The notes beneath the pieces were generated by a model. That model did no database searches, was not told the origin of the DNA, and saw only the letters and a program-made list of their open reading frames with translations. A stretch of 7,854 bases of DNA from an uncultured Clostridium sp. (GTDB taxonomy: Bacteria > Bacillota_A > Clostridia > TANB77 > CAG-508), in the NCBI GenBank assembly GCA_947244675.1, contig CAMXLV010000086.1, forward strand, positions 1-7,854, written 5' to 3'. Below, in pieces: positions 1 to 7,854 of the stretch; positions within the stretch are counted from its first letter, which is position 1, and every line of letters begins with the position of its first letter. A program made the translations under genes and the position numbers.

Positions 1-684
1 TCTGTAATTTCTGGCAAAATTTCTACAGAGGCAAAAGAGGTATGTCTTCTCCCTCCACTGTCAAATGGAGATATTCTAACTAAACGATGTACTCCCATCT
101 CTGATTTCATATATCCATAGGCATTTTGCCCTATTATTTCAAAAGTTACACTTTTTAATCCTGCTTCGTCTCCTTCTAAGTAATCTAATTCTTTTACTTC
201 ATAATTATTTTTACTCCCCCATCTTGTATACATTCGATATAACATTTCTGCCCAATCTTGTGATTCAGTTCCTCCTGCTCCTGGATGTATCGTGATAATT
301 GCATTATTGTTATCATATTTTCCAGATAAAAAAGTCATTATTTCAAACTTTTCAATTTCTTTTTGTAACTTACTTGTATTTTTTAAAATGTCTTTTATCA
401 TTTCCTCATCTGGTTCTATTTCTATTAGTTCACTTAGCTCCTCTAAATTCGTAATTTCTTTTTCTAATTGCCTATATTCATTTGTTTTGCCTTTGATTGT
501 TTTTATTTGAGCTAAGACTTTACTAGAATTTTTACTATCACTCCAAAAGTTTTCTTCCATAGTTTGTTGTTCAAGTTTTTTTAATTGTTCTTCCAATTTA
601 GCTATGTCAAAGAGACTCACCTAAATTCTGTAATTTTTGTTTTGCTGTTTTTAGTATTTTACAATTTTCTTCTAGCTCTAACAT
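1..684 (-). CDS. prfB: Peptide chain release factor 2 (RF2), 5' part, read through a programmed +1 frameshift
   Basis: RF2 recognises UAA and UGA stop codons in the ribosomal A site and triggers release of the finished protein. The zero frame starts at ATG 684 and runs 25 codons to an in-frame TGA (609-607). After skipping one T, the +1 frame continues from 608 to the window edge, giving 227 visible residues of a family usually about 325-370 long. The N-terminal part is a charged helical domain. The conserved HPGAGGTESQDW stretch follows, then the stop-codon-reading tripeptide SPF (codons 71-63, residues 205-207, the same numbers as in E. coli). The catalytic GGQ loop lies beyond the window. 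The start is supported by AGGAGAG at 698-692, 7 nt upstream of the ATG. Identification is firm; the C-terminal third cannot be checked. Confidence 0.96.
606..622 (-). promoter_or_regulatory. prfB: RF2 +1 programmed frameshift site (CTT TGA C)
   Basis: Reading the minus strand, CTT (612-610) is followed by TGA C (609-606), the standard RF2 recoding heptamer. A Shine-Dalgarno-like AGGTGA (622-617) lies 4 nt upstream of CTT. When RF2 is scarce the ribosome pauses at the UGA, tRNA-Leu slips forward one base and the full protein is made; when RF2 is plentiful the ribosome terminates after 25 residues. The stimulator differs from the E. coli AGGGGG, which sits 3 nt upstream of CTT. Reading frames on both sides encode recognisable RF2 sequence, so this is a real shift and not a sequencing error. 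Confidence 0.95.
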
Positions 685-3340: not shown

Positions 3341-3679
3341 ATGAAAAATTATCAAAAGCGGATAATACATCCGCAAAGTAAGGATCCTTTTTCAAATCTC
3401 TCTGAAATTTTAGAAAATCTTAGAGAGTATTTAAATAATACTTCTTTTTCATCTTCTTGCTTTAAGCAAAAGGTAGAAAAAGAACTTTCGTCTTCTGATG
3501 AAATGACACAGCACTTCAAGTGTCGATTGCTTAAGTGTTCCAATAAGTCAGAAGCACTTGAGACCATTCAAGACTTATACTGTACAGTAACACCGATTGC
3601 AGCAAATGTCGAAAAATGGTCAAAAATTTCAAACGTTGTAAGAGAACGTTTGAAAGATATAGAAAAAGGATTTTACTAA
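3341..3679 (+). CDS. Hypothetical 112-residue helical protein (the only plus-strand gene)
   Basis: I do not recognise this protein. It is 112 residues, hydrophilic and mostly helix-forming, with a Ser- and Cys-containing middle (five Cys in total at 40, 60, 65, 66-region and 80; no regular metal-binding spacing) and a charged C-terminal helix. There is no signal peptide or membrane segment. The case that it is real is strong: a canonical extended -10 promoter, AGGAGGT (3327-3333) 7 nt before the ATG, and a 14-bp stem terminator starting a few bases after the stop. It is isolated between two minus-strand groups, so neighbours give no clue to function. Single-gene control and small size would fit a regulator, an anti-factor or a small stress protein, but nothing in the sequence decides. 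Confidence 0.8.
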   Translation: MKNYQKRIIHPQSKDPFSNLSEILENLREYLNNTSFSSSCFKQKVEKELSSSDEMTQHFKCRLLKCSNKSEALETIQDLYCTVTPIAANVEKWSKISNVVRERLKDIEKGFY

Positions 3680-3819: not shown

Positions 3820-3874
3820 CCTTTGTAATAGGCTATTTTCCACAACAGTTCTTATATTTTTTCCCACTTCCACA
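3820..3874 (-). repeat. Direct repeat copy A: displaced secA 3' end
   Basis: Aligned by hand, this 55-bp stretch matches 5358-5412 at 49 positions. Bases 3824-3847 are identical to 5362-5385 (24 bp), including the TAG stop and eleven bases beyond it. Mismatches are at 3823, 3848, 3854, 3857, 3863 and 3872; the last five all fall on third codon positions of the secA frame and are synonymous. Similarity stops abruptly beyond 3874. Confidence 0.93.
3833..3874 (-). pseudogene. Remnant of a secA 3' end (SEC-C zinc-binding motif)
   Basis: On the minus strand these 14 codons read CGSGKKYKNCCGK followed by TAG, the same as the last 13 residues of the full SecA in this window. Upstream (higher coordinates) the frame runs only a few codons to an in-frame TAA, with no start codon or ribosome binding site, so it is not a gene. 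The synonymous-only differences show that this copy evolved as coding sequence before being cut off. It is best explained as a gene end displaced by site-specific integration; partial duplication of secA or loss of a former second SEC-C protein are alternatives. Confidence 0.88.
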
Positions 3875-3884
3875 TGCTCTCAAA

Positions 3885-4048
3885 TAAGAATATTATTTAT
3901 TATACAATAAATAATTTAGGACTATGTTTCCATAGTCCCTTTATCCGTTGGCTATTTGGCAGGTGTGCCAAATCCTGCATCTCTTTTGACCTTTTTAAGG
4001 TGTGTGGATGGCACTATTGTCCACTTCAAATAACCTACTTATATTGTA
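3885..4048 (-). ncRNA. Candidate structured RNA, family not recognised
   Basis: Read on the minus strand from a start near 4048, the region folds extensively by eye. TACAATA (4048-4042) pairs with TATTGTA (3909-3903), and TAGG (4037-4034) with CCTA (3920-3917), closing the molecule. Inside are a 5-bp hairpin (4024-4020/4008-4004), a 5-bp hairpin (4001-3997/3993-3989), an 8-bp hairpin (3973-3966/3961-3954) and an 8-bp hairpin capped by GAAA (3938-3931/3926-3919). A 10-bp AT hairpin (3915-3906/3901-3892) could end it, although its tail is only partly U-rich. GAAA appears only if the minus strand is transcribed. No convincing protein is encoded. I see no signatures of tmRNA, SRP RNA, RNase P, T-box or the common riboswitches. 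Confidence 0.5.
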
Positions 4049-4053
4049 CTTTT

Positions 4054-4082
4054 ATTATACAACTTTTATTCATTTTTGTCTA
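4054..4082 (-). promoter_or_regulatory. Strong promoter reading into the structured RNA region
   Basis: TAGACA (-35, 4082-4077) and a perfect TATAAT (-10, 4059-4054) are separated by 17 nt. The -35 lies inside the last codons of the upstream nuclease-like gene. Transcription would start near 4047-4048, exactly where the outer closing helix of the RNA candidate begins. Confidence 0.75.
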
Positions 4083-4525
4083 GCTTTTTTCCAAATGATT
4101 TTTCCTCTATTCCTTATGGTTTGATTCCATGTCCTTTTATTTAGTTTCATCAATGTTATTATTGAATTCTTATTATGTTCTTCATCTTGTCCTAATGCTA
4201 ACTTTATAACAACTCTACCATTTTTATCTATCTCATCAATTTCTTTTAAGTATATCATTGTATCTTCATGTCTGTTATCTTCAACTATATAATCTGGATT
4301 TTCAATTATGCTTTTTATATATGGTCGTAATTGTTTATATTCTTCTTCATGGAATAATAGTATGTGTTCATATAGTCGTTCATCTGTTAAAATAACTTCT
4401 TCAGTTATTAATTTATCTTTATATGTGCCTAATTTTTCCTTATCTAAATTTGTTATATATTGCAATATATTACCTTCTTTTTTATTTTGATTTGTAATAT
4501 AATAACAAATCTTTACATTTTTCAC
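4070..4525 (-). CDS. Phage-associated BECR-fold (PBECR-type) nuclease-like protein
   Basis: 151 residues, soluble, no signal peptide. The sequence order recalls the phage barnase-EndoU-colicin-RelE-like nuclease domains: ITEEVILTDER-x3-HI-x3-H (about 40-59, with His54 and His59), IIENPDYI (73-80), a charged beta-rich middle, then NKNSIITLMKLN (118-129) and a final Trp-x3-IRN-x2-KIIWKK segment. These domains are assigned as RNA-cutting toxins or phage-processing nucleases on fold grounds; activity is inferred. This assignment is from memory of the family pattern. The GTG start at 4525 lacks a clear ribosome binding site; TTG 4465, with GAAGG 7 nt upstream, is an alternative giving 131 residues and keeping the domain. 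It follows the broken peptidase gene by 36 nt and lies between the two secA repeats. Confidence 0.6.
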   Translation of the reverse strand: MKNVKICYYITNQNKKEGNILQYITNLDKEKLGTYKDKLITEEVILTDERLYEHILLFHEEEYKQLRPYIKSIIENPDYIVEDNRHEDTMIYLKEIDEIDKNGRVVIKLALGQDEEHNKNSIITLMKLNKRTWNQTIRNRGKIIWKKARQK

Positions 4526-4561
4526 AAGATATATTAATAAAATTATGATTAAAATTTATAA

Positions 4562-5221
4562 TTAAATTATAAACCATTTCCCTTCACTTATAATCTTAAC
4601 ATTTTCATTGTTTACACTGACTGCACCATTATCATCAACTATATATAACTTTTTACCGTCTATTTCTTGCAAATTTTCACTTGCATTTTCTAAATTCTCA
4701 AAATTTATTTTTGGAAAATATTTATTGTTAAGATGTGGAACAAATTGAAAATTAACAAAATCTAAACCATCACTTGGAAATCCCGCAATATTTTCATCAA
4801 ATAAATCTTGGCAAGAATTACAGACTGTAGGACATAAAACACAACTACCAGCACTTGCCCCGATCCAAATTCGAGTTTCTAATAATCTTAATAAATTTTC
4901 TTCTAATCCTGATTTTTTAATACAGTATCTTAACCATTGAGTATTTCCACCTTCAAAATAGAATACATCTGCCCATTCAAATCTTGGTAAAAAATTCTCT
5001 TTGCTAATTCCATTAATATCGCACACATCTATTTTAAAGCCTAAATTTTAAAATTTTTCTAAATCTTCAATTAGCCACTCATTCATGTCACCACCTTCAT
5101 AATTTGAAGCAGTAGTACAGAATAACATTTTTAATCCTTTAAAATCTTTACCAATTAGATTTTTTAGTTCATCTTCAATAGTTTTATTTGATATTCCTCC
5201 TGATGTTAATAAAAATTTCAT
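4562..5221 (-). pseudogene. Peptidase E-like protein (peptidase family S51, class I amidotransferase fold) interrupted by one in-frame TAA
   Basis: Family members hydrolyse small Asp-containing peptides or are uncharacterised. Reading one frame from ATG 5221 gives 219 codons plus the final stop, the normal family length, but codon 58 (5050-5048) is TAA. Everything on both sides is in frame and conserved: N-terminal LLTSGGISN, FEGGNTQWLRYC in the middle, GASAGS with nucleophile Ser123, and VPHLN with candidate catalytic His163. A single AAA-to-TAA change would explain the stop. ATG 5221 is chosen because GGAGG (5231-5227) precedes it by 5 nt; ATG 5233 would place that GGAGG inside the gene. 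Restart at GTG 5026 has no ribosome binding site and would lose the N-terminal strand. It is probably a recent pseudogene; sequencing error is possible. Confidence 0.8.
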
Positions 5222-5245
5222 AAGCACCTCCATATAATTATTATT

Positions 5246-5294
5246 GTTATAACAGCATAAAAGTGGCTAGTTAATTATCCACTTTTATGCTGTT
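5246..5294 (-). promoter_or_regulatory. Promoter of the peptidase E-like gene overlapping a 16-bp inverted repeat
   Basis: TTAACT (5274-5269) and TATAAC (5251-5246) are 17 nt apart, and TGT before the -10 gives an extended form. A perfect 16-bp inverted repeat (5251-5266 and 5279-5294, 12-nt loop) covers the spacer and one -10 base, with the -35 in its loop. On the plus strand the repeat is followed by TTTTTCTT (5293-5300), so it could instead be a rightward terminator, though no plus-strand gene leads into it. On the minus strand it would back up the secA terminator. Which role applies is undecided. Confidence 0.5.
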
Positions 5295-5306
5295 TTTCTT
5301 GAACAA

Positions 5307-5333
5307 TGAAAACCCCACGTTTTACGTAGGGTT
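5307..5333 (-). terminator. secA terminator
   Basis: A 10-bp stem (5333-5324 and 5320-5311, one T-G pair, AAA loop) is followed on the minus strand by a short TTTT run (5312-5309). It lies 38 nt after the secA stop codon. Confidence 0.88.
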
Positions 5334-5357
5334 CTAAAAGCTTCTAGCTATCTGTAA

Positions 5358-5412
5358 CCTCTGTAATAGGCTATTTTCCACAACAATTCTTGTACTTTTT
5401 ACCACTTCCGCA
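5358..5412 (-). repeat. Direct repeat copy B: functional secA 3' end
   Basis: The partner of 3820-3874, in the same orientation and 1538 bp away. It covers the last 13 secA codons, the stop and about 13 bp beyond, with 5362-5385 identical to 3824-3847. Downstream of 5358 the two copies share nothing obvious. Confidence 0.93.
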
Positions 5413-7854
5413 AGGACAAAGATCATTTCTACCAATCTTAGGTTCTTCATTGCGAACTGTTCTATCAACATCAGTTCCTATCTTAGCTCCTCCATCTACA
5501 CTGTGGATAGCTTCCAAAGCTGCTCCTGTAATCTTAACTGTCTCTTGTCTTTTTGCTTCTCCATGTTGTCTAATATGCATTAAAATTTTAGTTACATCTA
5601 CTTTAATATCATTAATCATTTCATCAAACATATCAAAGCCTTCTAGTCTATATTGAACAACTGGATCTTTTTGCCCATAAGCACGAAGTCCAATACCATT
5701 TTTTAATTCATCCATACTATCAATATGGTTCATCCATTTTTCATCAACTACTTTAAGCATAACAACTCTTTCAAGTTCACGCATTTCTTCTTGTCCAATC
5801 TCTTGTTCTTTTTCTGCATAAATTTCCATTGCCTTTTTCTTTAATGTTTCTGTTATCATGCTAGTATCTGCTTTACTTGTCTTGATAAAATCTAACATAT
5901 CAATACCAAATATATTGATTATTTCTGCATTTAAAGATTCTACATTTAATTCTGATGTTTCAACATTAACAAACATATTTACAATATTATCTGCCACAAA
6001 CTCAATCATAGAAACAATACTATCATGAATGTTTTTTCCATCTAATACTTCTCTTCTTTGTTTGTAAATAATTTCTCTTTGTGCATTCATAACATCATCA
6101 TATTTTAATACATTTTTACGAATACTAAAGTTTCTACCTTCTACCTTCTTTTGAGCATTTTCTACAGCATTTGATATAATTCTAGAATCAATTGGCATAT
6201 TTTCATCTGCTCCTAATGTATTATAAACCCTAGTAATAGCTTCTCCACCAAATATTTTCATTAAATCATCATCTAATCCAATATAAAACTTAGATTCACC
6301 ATTATCTCCTTGACGTCCAGAACGTCCACGCAAATGGTTATCAATTCTTCTTGATTCATGTCTTTCTGTACCAATAATTTTTAATCCACCAGCTGCTATT
6401 ACTTTTTCTTTTTCTTCCTTGATTTTTTCATCATATTTTTCTACTAGATTTCTAAAATCTTCTCTTGCTTTTAAGATTTCTTGGTCTTCTGTTTCATAAT
6501 AAGTATCTGCTTCTTCAATAATTTCATGAGGTACTTTGTTTTTTCTCATTTCTTCTTTTGCTAAGAACTCACTATTTCCACCAAGCATAATATCAGTACC
6601 ACGTCCTGCCATATTAGTTGCTATGGTAACAGCCCCAAATTTACCTGCTTGAGCAACAATTTCTGCTTCTTTTTCATGATATTTAGCATTTAACACTTCA
6701 TGCTTAATGCCTTCTTTTCTTAATAATTGACTTAATTTTTCTGATTTTTCAATTGATACTGTACCAACTAATACTGGTTGTCCTACCTCATGACTCTTTT
6801 TAATATTTTCAACAATTGCTTTAAATTTAGCATTTTCATTTTTATAAATAACATCATTTTCATCTTTACGAGCAATTGGCTTGTTGGTTGGAATTTCAAT
6901 AACATCTAAGTTATAGATTTCTTCAAATTCTCCAGCTTCTGTCATAGCAGTACCTGTCATACCAGATAATTTATCGTACATTCTAAAGAAGTTTTGGAAA
7001 GTAATTGTTGCAAGAGTTCTTGATTCATCTGCTATTTTTACATTTTCTTTTGCTTCAATTGCTTGATGTAATCCATTATTATATCTTCTTCCATACATAA
7101 TACGACCAGTAAATTCATCAACAATTAATACTTCTCCATCTTTTACAATATAGTCAATATCTTTTTTCATGATTCCATGTGCTCTTAAAGCTTGATTTAC
7201 ATGGTGAACTAAAGTTGAATTTTCTAAATCATTGAAATTCTCTAAATGAAAGGCATCTTCTGCTTTTTTAATACCTTTTCCAGTTAATGATGCTGATTTT
7301 GCTTTTAAGTCAACAATGTAATCATATTTTTCGTTATCCTCAGCCTGATCATAATCTTTAACATCTTCTTCTATAATAACTTTTGGTGTTAATCTTTTTA
7401 CAAAATCATTTGCTCTTTTATATAAGTCAGAAGATTCATTAGCTCTACCAGATATGATAAGTGGTGTACGTGCTTCGTCAATTAAAATACTATCAATTTC
7501 ATCGACAATAGCATAATGTAACCCTCTTTGTACTAACTGATTGTTATAAATTACCATGTTATCTCTTAGATAATCAAATCCATATTCATTATTTGTTCCA
7601 TAAGTAATATCTGCATTGTAAGCATCTTGCTTTTCTTTTGGTTCCATTCCTGCAATAACAAGTCCAACACTTAATCCTAAGAATTTATATAATTTTCCCA
7701 TCCATTCACTATCTCTCTTGGCTAGGTAATCATTAACTGTAATAACATGTGCCCCTTTTCCTTCTAAGGCATTTAGATATACAGGTAAAGTAGCAACTAA
7801 AGTTTTACCTTCACCTGTTTTCATTTCTGCAATTCTTCCTTGGTGCAAAATAAT
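5371..7854 (-). CDS. secA: Preprotein translocase ATPase SecA, N-terminus cut by window edge
   Basis: SecA is the ATP-driven motor that pushes unfolded preproteins through the SecYEG channel in the cytoplasmic membrane. 827 residues are visible; about 80 N-terminal residues lie outside. Numbering from the first visible residue: Walker A MKTGEGKT (11-18), Walker B and DEAD-type motif VDEIDSILIDEARTP (117-131), preprotein cross-linking region about 135-275, helicase motifs MAGRGTDI (415-422) and IGTERHESRRID (494-505) with LRGRSGRQGD to 517. Helical scaffold and wing domains follow. The C-terminal zinc-binding tail is CPC-x8-CC (813, 815, 824, 825), with Cys in place of the His of E. coli. A charged segment of about 60 residues between GRGTDI and IGTERH is longer than in E. 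coli. Its last 55 bp are the direct repeat found again at 3820. Confidence 0.98.
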   Translation of the reverse strand: MILHQGRIAEMKTGEGKTLVATLPVYLNALEGKGAHVITVNDYLAKRDSEWMGKLYKFLGLSVGLVIAGMEPKEKQDAYNADITYGTNNEYGFDYLRDNMVIYNNQLVQRGLHYAIVDEIDSILIDEARTPLIISGRANESSDLYKRANDFVKRLTPKVIIEEDVKDYDQAEDNEKYDYIVDLKAKSASLTGKGIKKAEDAFHLENFNDLENSTLVHHVNQALRAHGIMKKDIDYIVKDGEVLIVDEFTGRIMYGRRYNNGLHQAIEAKENVKIADESRTLATITFQNFFRMYDKLSGMTGTAMTEAGEFEEIYNLDVIEIPTNKPIARKDENDVIYKNENAKFKAIVENIKKSHEVGQPVLVGTVSIEKSEKLSQLLRKEGIKHEVLNAKYHEKEAEIVAQAGKFGAVTIATNMAGRGTDIMLGGNSEFLAKEEMRKNKVPHEIIEEADTYYETEDQEILKAREDFRNLVEKYDEKIKEEKEKVIAAGGLKIIGTERHESRRIDNHLRGRSGRQGDNGESKFYIGLDDDLMKIFGGEAITRVYNTLGADENMPIDSRIISNAVENAQKKVEGRNFSIRKNVLKYDDVMNAQREIIYKQRREVLDGKNIHDSIVSMIEFVADNIVNMFVNVETSELNVESLNAEIINIFGIDMLDFIKTSKADTSMITETLKKKAMEIYAEKEQEIGQEEMRELERVVMLKVVDEKWMNHIDSMDELKNGIGLRAYGQKDPVVQYRLEGFDMFDEMINDIKVDVTKILMHIRQHGEAKRQETVKITGAALEAIHSVDGGAKIGTDVDRTVRNEEPKIGRNDLCPCGSGKKYKNCCGK

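Follow-up and report, generated by a model that had tools for sequence, protein, structure and literature searches.

SecA 3′ ends as probable attachment sites for small cassettes

The 3′ end of secA, where the gene encodes its terminal SEC-C motif, appears to serve as an attachment site for tyrosine integrases in one family of uncultured Clostridia. In the 7,854-nucleotide stretch analyzed here (the window), two direct repeats of the secA end are best explained as attL and attR, the junctions left when a small cassette entered the SEC-C-coding secA 3′ end by site-specific recombination. We put the probability that the repeats are att sites of integrase-driven origin at roughly 0.9, although the recombination itself is something that we infer—from integrases near SEC-C copies that form a single branch, a shared AT-rich arm, sharp edges of identity, exchanged flanks, empty sites, and SecA-like tails behind the copies. 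As cargo, the putative cassette carries a broken S51 peptidase gene, a PBECR2 RNase gene, and a skipping-rope RNA framed by signals that resemble a promoter and a terminator.

On the minus strand, the window runs from secA through the two pieces of the S51 gene, the PBECR2 gene, and the skipping-rope RNA to the short copy of the repeat (Table 1). The two 55-bp copies, whose starts lie 1538 bp apart, are identical at 49 of 55 positions and share an uninterrupted 24-bp block across the stop codon; an exact 24-mer present twice within 7.9 kb is not a chance event. Both copies encode CGSGKKYKNCCGK followed by a stop on the minus strand, and of their six mismatches, five are coding, all at third positions and synonymous, while the sixth lies after the stop. 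The first-pass annotation had described just such a repeat with its core over the stop and with synonymous third-position changes, and both descriptions held. It had also named a case that would speak against its reading, namely that in relatives the short copy is the tail of an intact SEC-C gene; within the window, by our own reading of the sequence, a TAA closes its frame seven codons upstream, so that no open gene ends in the short copy.

Table 1. Features of the secA end and the putative cassette in the window
Feature	Position	Strand	Basis
secA 3′ part, ending in the SEC-C motif; gene of the proposed attB	5371..7854	minus	Pfam SecA domains and SEC-C
Proximal copy of the repeat (proposed attL), covering SEC-C codons, the stop, and the next 13 bp	5358..5412	minus	Repeat comparison
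Inverted repeat (22-bp arms, 91% complementarity) resembling a terminator, between attL and S51 gene	5251..5294	minus	Repeat search
N-terminal piece of broken gene, in frame with S51 piece, closed by in-frame stop	5048..5233	minus	ORF reading
C-terminal piece of S51 peptidase-like gene	4562..5026	minus	PF03575, 1.3e-16
PBECR2 nuclease gene	4070..4525	minus	PF18810, 5.2e-10, over cut-off
Promoter-like TAGACA-17-TATAAT (11/12) before the RNA, overlapping PBECR2 gene end	4054..4082	minus	Motif scan
Skipping-rope RNA RF02924	3951..4034	minus	67 bits vs gathering score 36.7, E 7e-15
Hairpin resembling a terminator, after the RNA	3918..3939	minus	1 found vs 0.1 in shuffles
Left arm of distal site, AT-rich, ATAATAT ~15 bp before TGTGG	3875..3917	minus	Copy alignment
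Distal repeat copy, read as attR	3820..3874	minus	Repeat comparison, alignment of copies, edge profile

Both sides of the proposed insertion have counterparts elsewhere: the 22 bp after the core of the proximal copy are common to locus L007 except for one base, and the left arm of the distal site, TTTGAGAGCNTGTGG, is matched exactly only in the window and in L087. Between them, the N-terminal piece of the broken gene has on its own no Pfam match to S51. The nuclease gene scores 40 bits with the PBECR2 profile (PF18810; cut-off 27.1) and 32 with PBECR3 (30), and probably starts at a TTG at 4465, where most close homologues begin, judging by homologue lengths and the start of the alignment. Promoter-like sites in the region number 11 against 6.5 in shuffles, and the one before the RNA has the top score. 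Elsewhere in the window, a 112-aa ORF without a convincing Pfam match (3341–3679, plus strand) runs opposite to the other genes, and near the beginning of the prfB frame, within a few codons (607–620, minus strand), a CTTTGA resembles the RF2 frameshift site.

A single integrase branch at the secA end

Tyrosine integrase genes stand directly behind secA at three loci (L005, L011, and, as a split gene, L003), and the L005 protein has arm-binding, SAM-like, and catalytic domains. With this integrase as query (E ≤ 1e-40), we obtained 35 matches in 25 of the 145 genomes of the family; 18 of these matches are no farther than 1 kb from a SEC-C match on the same strand, against an expectation of ~0.03, a rough figure derived from 160 SEC-C matches and 1.5-Mb genomes. 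Such a survey of secA 3′ ends for integrases had been suggested by the first-pass annotation, and its outcome agrees with that reading. Fourteen of the 35 start 233–733 bp behind a SEC-C match (in five cases the distance is exactly 249 bp), whilst four end 308–365 bp before one; among the other 17, five are farther off on a contig with a same-strand match and 12 have no listed match on theirs, some lying at contig ends.

A tree was built from 34 integrases no shorter than 370 residues (four from named contigs added, partial ones dropped). One of its branches, with support of 100/100, unites 14 labelled as behind secA, six labelled distal (one of which, L085, stands behind a copy), one inside an island, and two unplaced, with the other 11 outside it. 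Across a class-level sample of 321 genomes, ten match the integrase at E ≤ 1e-60, and two of these belong to the family; the other eight genomes contribute nine integrase loci, none with a convincing SEC-C core in the 1.5 kb on each side. A SEC-C match with five mismatches at L318, outside the family, reads as chance. Judged from these sequences, integrase use of the secA end looks confined to this family in the samples examined.

Copies, arms, and junctions in relatives

A scan with the C-terminal part of SecA, from which the best 80 loci were kept, placed the nearest secA relatives (identity up to 87% among these loci) in metagenome-assembled genomes (MAGs) of uncultured Clostridia. Many distant relatives have prfB close behind secA; in the near kin of the window, varied genes occupy the gap. 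A 26-base SEC-C end pattern with at most one mismatch, which favours intact motifs and leaves arms and tails outside, matched 22 of 24 genomes, and five of the 24 (G003, G008, G010, G016, and G018) carry at least two same-strand copies on one contig, the G018 pair on another contig than secA. Within the family of G010, the pattern matched 128 of 145 genomes, at least 11 of them with two or more same-strand matches per contig.

Distal copies aligned from these loci (n = 35, window included) share more than the core. ATAATAY or a close variant precedes TGTGG by ~16 bp in 23 of the 35, including the window, and different arms occur at some, such as L083, L092, and L026. At least 11 of the 12 residues of CGSGKKYKNCCG are kept in 33 of 35, under a search pattern that itself favours intact motifs, and the tails that follow (e.g., KNA, RNQ, K, and KNQ) are SecA-like. 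The sharp ends of identity claimed for the window proved general: over 18 consecutive copy pairs at 15 loci, identity in ten-base bins is 0.66–0.87 from −10 to +40 around the core and 0.31–0.45 outside. Core identity is 0.835 in matched att pairs and 0.806 in mismatched pairs, and because mismatched pairs are so much alike in the core, this profile shows edges rather than partners and does not place the crossover.

Junctions and empty sites, for which the first-pass annotation had proposed a search, were both found. The flank behind a distal copy matches the flank directly behind secA elsewhere in L131 versus L014 (97% over 178 bp) and L099 versus L094 (97% over 157 bp), and in L106 prfB comes after the copy just as it comes after secA in L151 (70% over 251 bp). 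Some of these flanks may match as the arm of another element rather than as bare chromosome; the join lies at the core either way. At empty-type sites (L142, L145, and L151), prfB begins 210–260 bp behind secA. Viral contigs gave no matches to the arm-plus-core pattern, and nine close secA loci gave none to Rfam at the gathering threshold, where the stretches searched end before some islands (that of L011 before the RNA of G010).

In the mechanism that we propose, for which the evidence from sequence is strong, one clade of tyrosine integrases would take the secA 3′ end as attB, and the attP of the element would imitate the codons for CGSGKKYKNCCG. Insertion would then supply secA with a new synonymous tail and push the old one downstream, where it would persist as the distal copy, and repeated use of the site would build a pile of co-oriented cassettes between secA and prfB. 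A plain duplication, in which slippage or segmental copying of the secA end made the repeat with no integrase involved, would explain why the copy derives from secA and adjoins it, but we regard it as very improbable given that the arm recurs beside distal copies in many genomes, that integrases stand at both kinds of copy, and that flanks are exchanged. Counterpoints to the att reading itself are that the cassette of the window lacks an integrase, that no circular form was seen, that 17 of the 35 integrase matches in the family and all nine loci outside it are not within reach of a SEC-C core, and that all relatives compared are MAG contigs.

Captured cassettes or decayed elements

We delimited 21 intervals between neighbouring copies, leaving out a 25-kb island in G157 and a cut cassette in L156. 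Their contents are mixed: L092 has four copies 0.8–1.0 kb apart, separated by a DNA-alkylation-repair gene and by two genes identified by eye, one Nudix-like and one small, and L096 holds a lone S51 peptidase ~31% identical over 86 residues to the S51 piece of the window. A secA end with a PBECR gene was found in the window and in G155, as well as in G010, whose PBECR gene is broken and where an intact RNA accompanies the broken gene behind the distal copy. The first-pass proposal that the secA 3′ end is an att site for a family of BECR-carrying elements is therefore upheld for the att site, by integrases and junctions, and fails for BECR genes as the mark of the family, since cargo is mixed. 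G155, in which secA is followed by a PBECR2 gene 93% identical to that of the window (120 residues) and then by the RNA, with no second core at up to five mismatches within the stretch behind secA, comes close to the other case named against that proposal, the same 1.5 kb lacking a core repeat, but the S51 gene is absent there.

One explanation of how such small units arose has about even odds: the 1.5 kb would be a CIME, left over from a larger IME, ICE, or prophage whose integrase was lost by deletion. Large integrase-bearing islands do occupy the same site (L081, with 16.5 kb between copies), split integrase remnants persist in L003 and L082, the S51 gene of the window is broken, and such CIMEs are already described in the part of the literature drawn on here (PMC5704250). 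Against decay stand the intervals themselves, 17 of 21 of which have no integrase similarity even at 1e-5 and eight of which contain a single ORF that reaches 100 aa; all 66 ORFs of that size point with secA. That the small units were captured as cassettes rather than left by decay is a reading to which we give slightly less than even odds. The cassette in the window has no integrase gene, and its mobility is thus something we infer; it would need an integrase in trans.

Solo PBECR genes are paired with skipping-rope RNA

PBECR2 and PBECR3 searches of the family returned 45 distinct genes, 40 of them solo (a frame of at most 170 aa) and five in larger proteins, and RF02924 gave 79 matches in 52 of the 145 genomes. 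Of the 40 solo genes, 37 have the RNA no more than 1 kb away on the 3′ side (36 within 121 bp), whereas none of the five larger proteins has it there; by chance, a small fraction of one such adjacency is expected. Forty of the 79 RNAs adjoin a PBECR gene and 39 do not. The three solo genes that have no RNA even with filters off are intact in G070, interrupted by stops in G143, and partial in G048. The pairing extends beyond the family: comparison by eye across 299 genomes sampled from the phylum shows the RNA 36–120 bp from every one of the nine PBECR2 matches (two below the cut-off, one in a 509-aa frame), on the same strand in eight. Among 114 viral stretches with a short RNA motif, eight hold the RNA by covariance model; three of these RNAs start 33 bp after a PBECR2 domain, which in two cases closes a phage minor capsid protein, and the other five have no PBECR gene beside them.

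Several loci show variant arrangements. On phage contigs L192 (2226–4111), L243 (1503–3505), and L225 (2174–2903), the RNA occurs once or twice in tandem, 33 bp behind the PBECR2 domain. In L304 (G193:C16, 1005–4001), a PBECR2–skipping-rope pair lies between hsdS-like and hsdR-like genes of a type I restriction operon (by eye), and in L306 (G439:C11, 61–3507), a convergent PBECR–RNA pair lies between two copies of a gene with a terminal SEC-C motif. The RNA also follows a distal copy in L165 and, as a weak match, secA in G117, and in L156 it is enclosed by two cores, of which the contig end truncates the first.

The skipping-rope motif reportedly stems from Weinberg and co-workers in 2017. We extracted 31 RNAs and aligned 28 (L176, L178, and L181 were left out), finding covariation in 12 of 16 predicted pairs. 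When the family helices are combined with a pseudoknot of five pairs, 93.2% of cells are paired, compared with 83.0% in shuffles, and double changes number 63 against 18.4; further pair types, at 31 against 29.0, show no excess. A pseudoknot is drawn for the family in the consulted part of Rfam's own paper (PMC7779021). Promoter-like boxes of at least 10/12 precede 13 of 16 PBECR-linked RNAs and 5 of 13 others, L156 having too little upstream sequence to be counted. Protein and RNA distances are correlated across 21 pairs (Mantel r 0.80, reached in 0 of 2000 permutations), a result that linked inheritance alone could give. For the nuclease of the window, PADLOC has no model and Foldseek returned no match at E ≤ 0.001; the list of structure matches is headed by BECR toxins.

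We consider it rather likely that the skipping-rope RNA is the antidote of a putative PBECR toxin, acting as RNA antitoxins do. Sequence comparison suggests as much through the constant pairing with solo genes, in the family and the phylum, and its absence from the giant proteins, together with the boxes, the covarying pseudoknot, and the BECR toxins among structure matches; that the RNA restrains the nuclease is further suggested by how often it occurs with no gene. The 39 RNAs apart from any PBECR gene and the three solo genes that have no RNA also weigh on the other side. The RNA might instead act within the nuclease mRNA, as an element for its processing, stability, or termination, or serve the nuclease as substrate, as would suit its position just behind the gene and mostly on the same strand (32 of 37 pairs) and the box-less RNAs that stand directly behind secA itself with no PBECR gene (L161, L162, and L164), which are probably part of the secA mRNA. 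We think this unlikely, since most linked RNAs have a promoter-like box of their own, five of the 37 are convergent to the gene, tandem pairs exist (G117, G149, G070, L225, and L243), and the RNA is present beside the broken PBECR gene of G010.

Relation to known systems

As an integrative element, the insertion resembles the IMEs, ICEs, and CIME accretion described in the part of a review used here (PMC5704250)—a gene end restored, direct att repeats, tandems, and integrase-less decayed members—in that the window has direct att-like repeats, one of them rebuilding secA, and integrase-bearing relatives at the same site. It differs in its units, which are often single-gene and uniformly co-oriented, and in its target, as secA goes unmentioned in that part of the review; nor did we find secA as an integration target in the openly licensed literature. 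Integrons likewise have a tyrosine recombinase and small, co-oriented, often single-gene units between recombination sites, whereas the sites here are copies of secA codons rather than attC and integrase genes lie inside some units. Scored with the integron IntI model, the integrases reach 69.8 and 64.6 bits, far short of its cut-off at 265.

For the RNA, the likeness is to type III toxin–antitoxin systems (ToxIN, CptIN, and TenpIN) and AbiF-RCd22, in which, according to the parts of two papers drawn on here (PMC5086642, PMC12373285), an RNase-like protein is encoded next to a small structured RNA, with tandem copies in some; the pseudoknot of the skipping-rope RNA also recalls ToxI antitoxins, which are pseudoknotted (PMC5086642). 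RCd22 was an orphan Rfam motif that proved to be the RNA antitoxin of AbiF (PMC12373285, in part), and on present comparison AbiF-RCd22 is the nearest precedent for the skipping-rope RNA as a candidate antidote. Type III systems have RNA repeats upstream of the toxin with a terminator between; here, in contrast, the RNA lies 3′ of the gene, often behind its own promoter-like box, in one or two copies of ~80 nt, with a single copy in the window. The BECR fold, predicted here, is to our knowledge not the fold of ToxIN, CptIN, or TenpIN. PBECR domains themselves are known as predicted RNase domains of phage and mobile-element proteins, solo forms included, from an account of polyvalent proteins (PMC5512222) that, in the part drawn on here, mentions no RNA partner. 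Our search of the openly licensed literature found no link between PBECR and skipping-rope RNA.

Tentatively, and with more doubt than attaches to the att sites, the whole might form a cassette system convergent with integrons in one uncultured Clostridia family, in which SEC-C codons would be a permanent dock, one integrase clade would insert small co-oriented cassettes that restore secA, and modules of PBECR RNase and skipping-rope antidote, an unrecognised kind of RNA antitoxin, would help to hold the arrays. If the att and antidote readings are right, the zinc-motif codons of an essential gene would be an addressable attachment site and, with the integrase, a new integrase–target pair; the orphan Rfam family would gain a testable function as RNA partner of PBECR nucleases, both solo and phage-capsid-fused; and the secA end would be a hotspot from which the accessory genes of uncultured gut bacteria could be read off.
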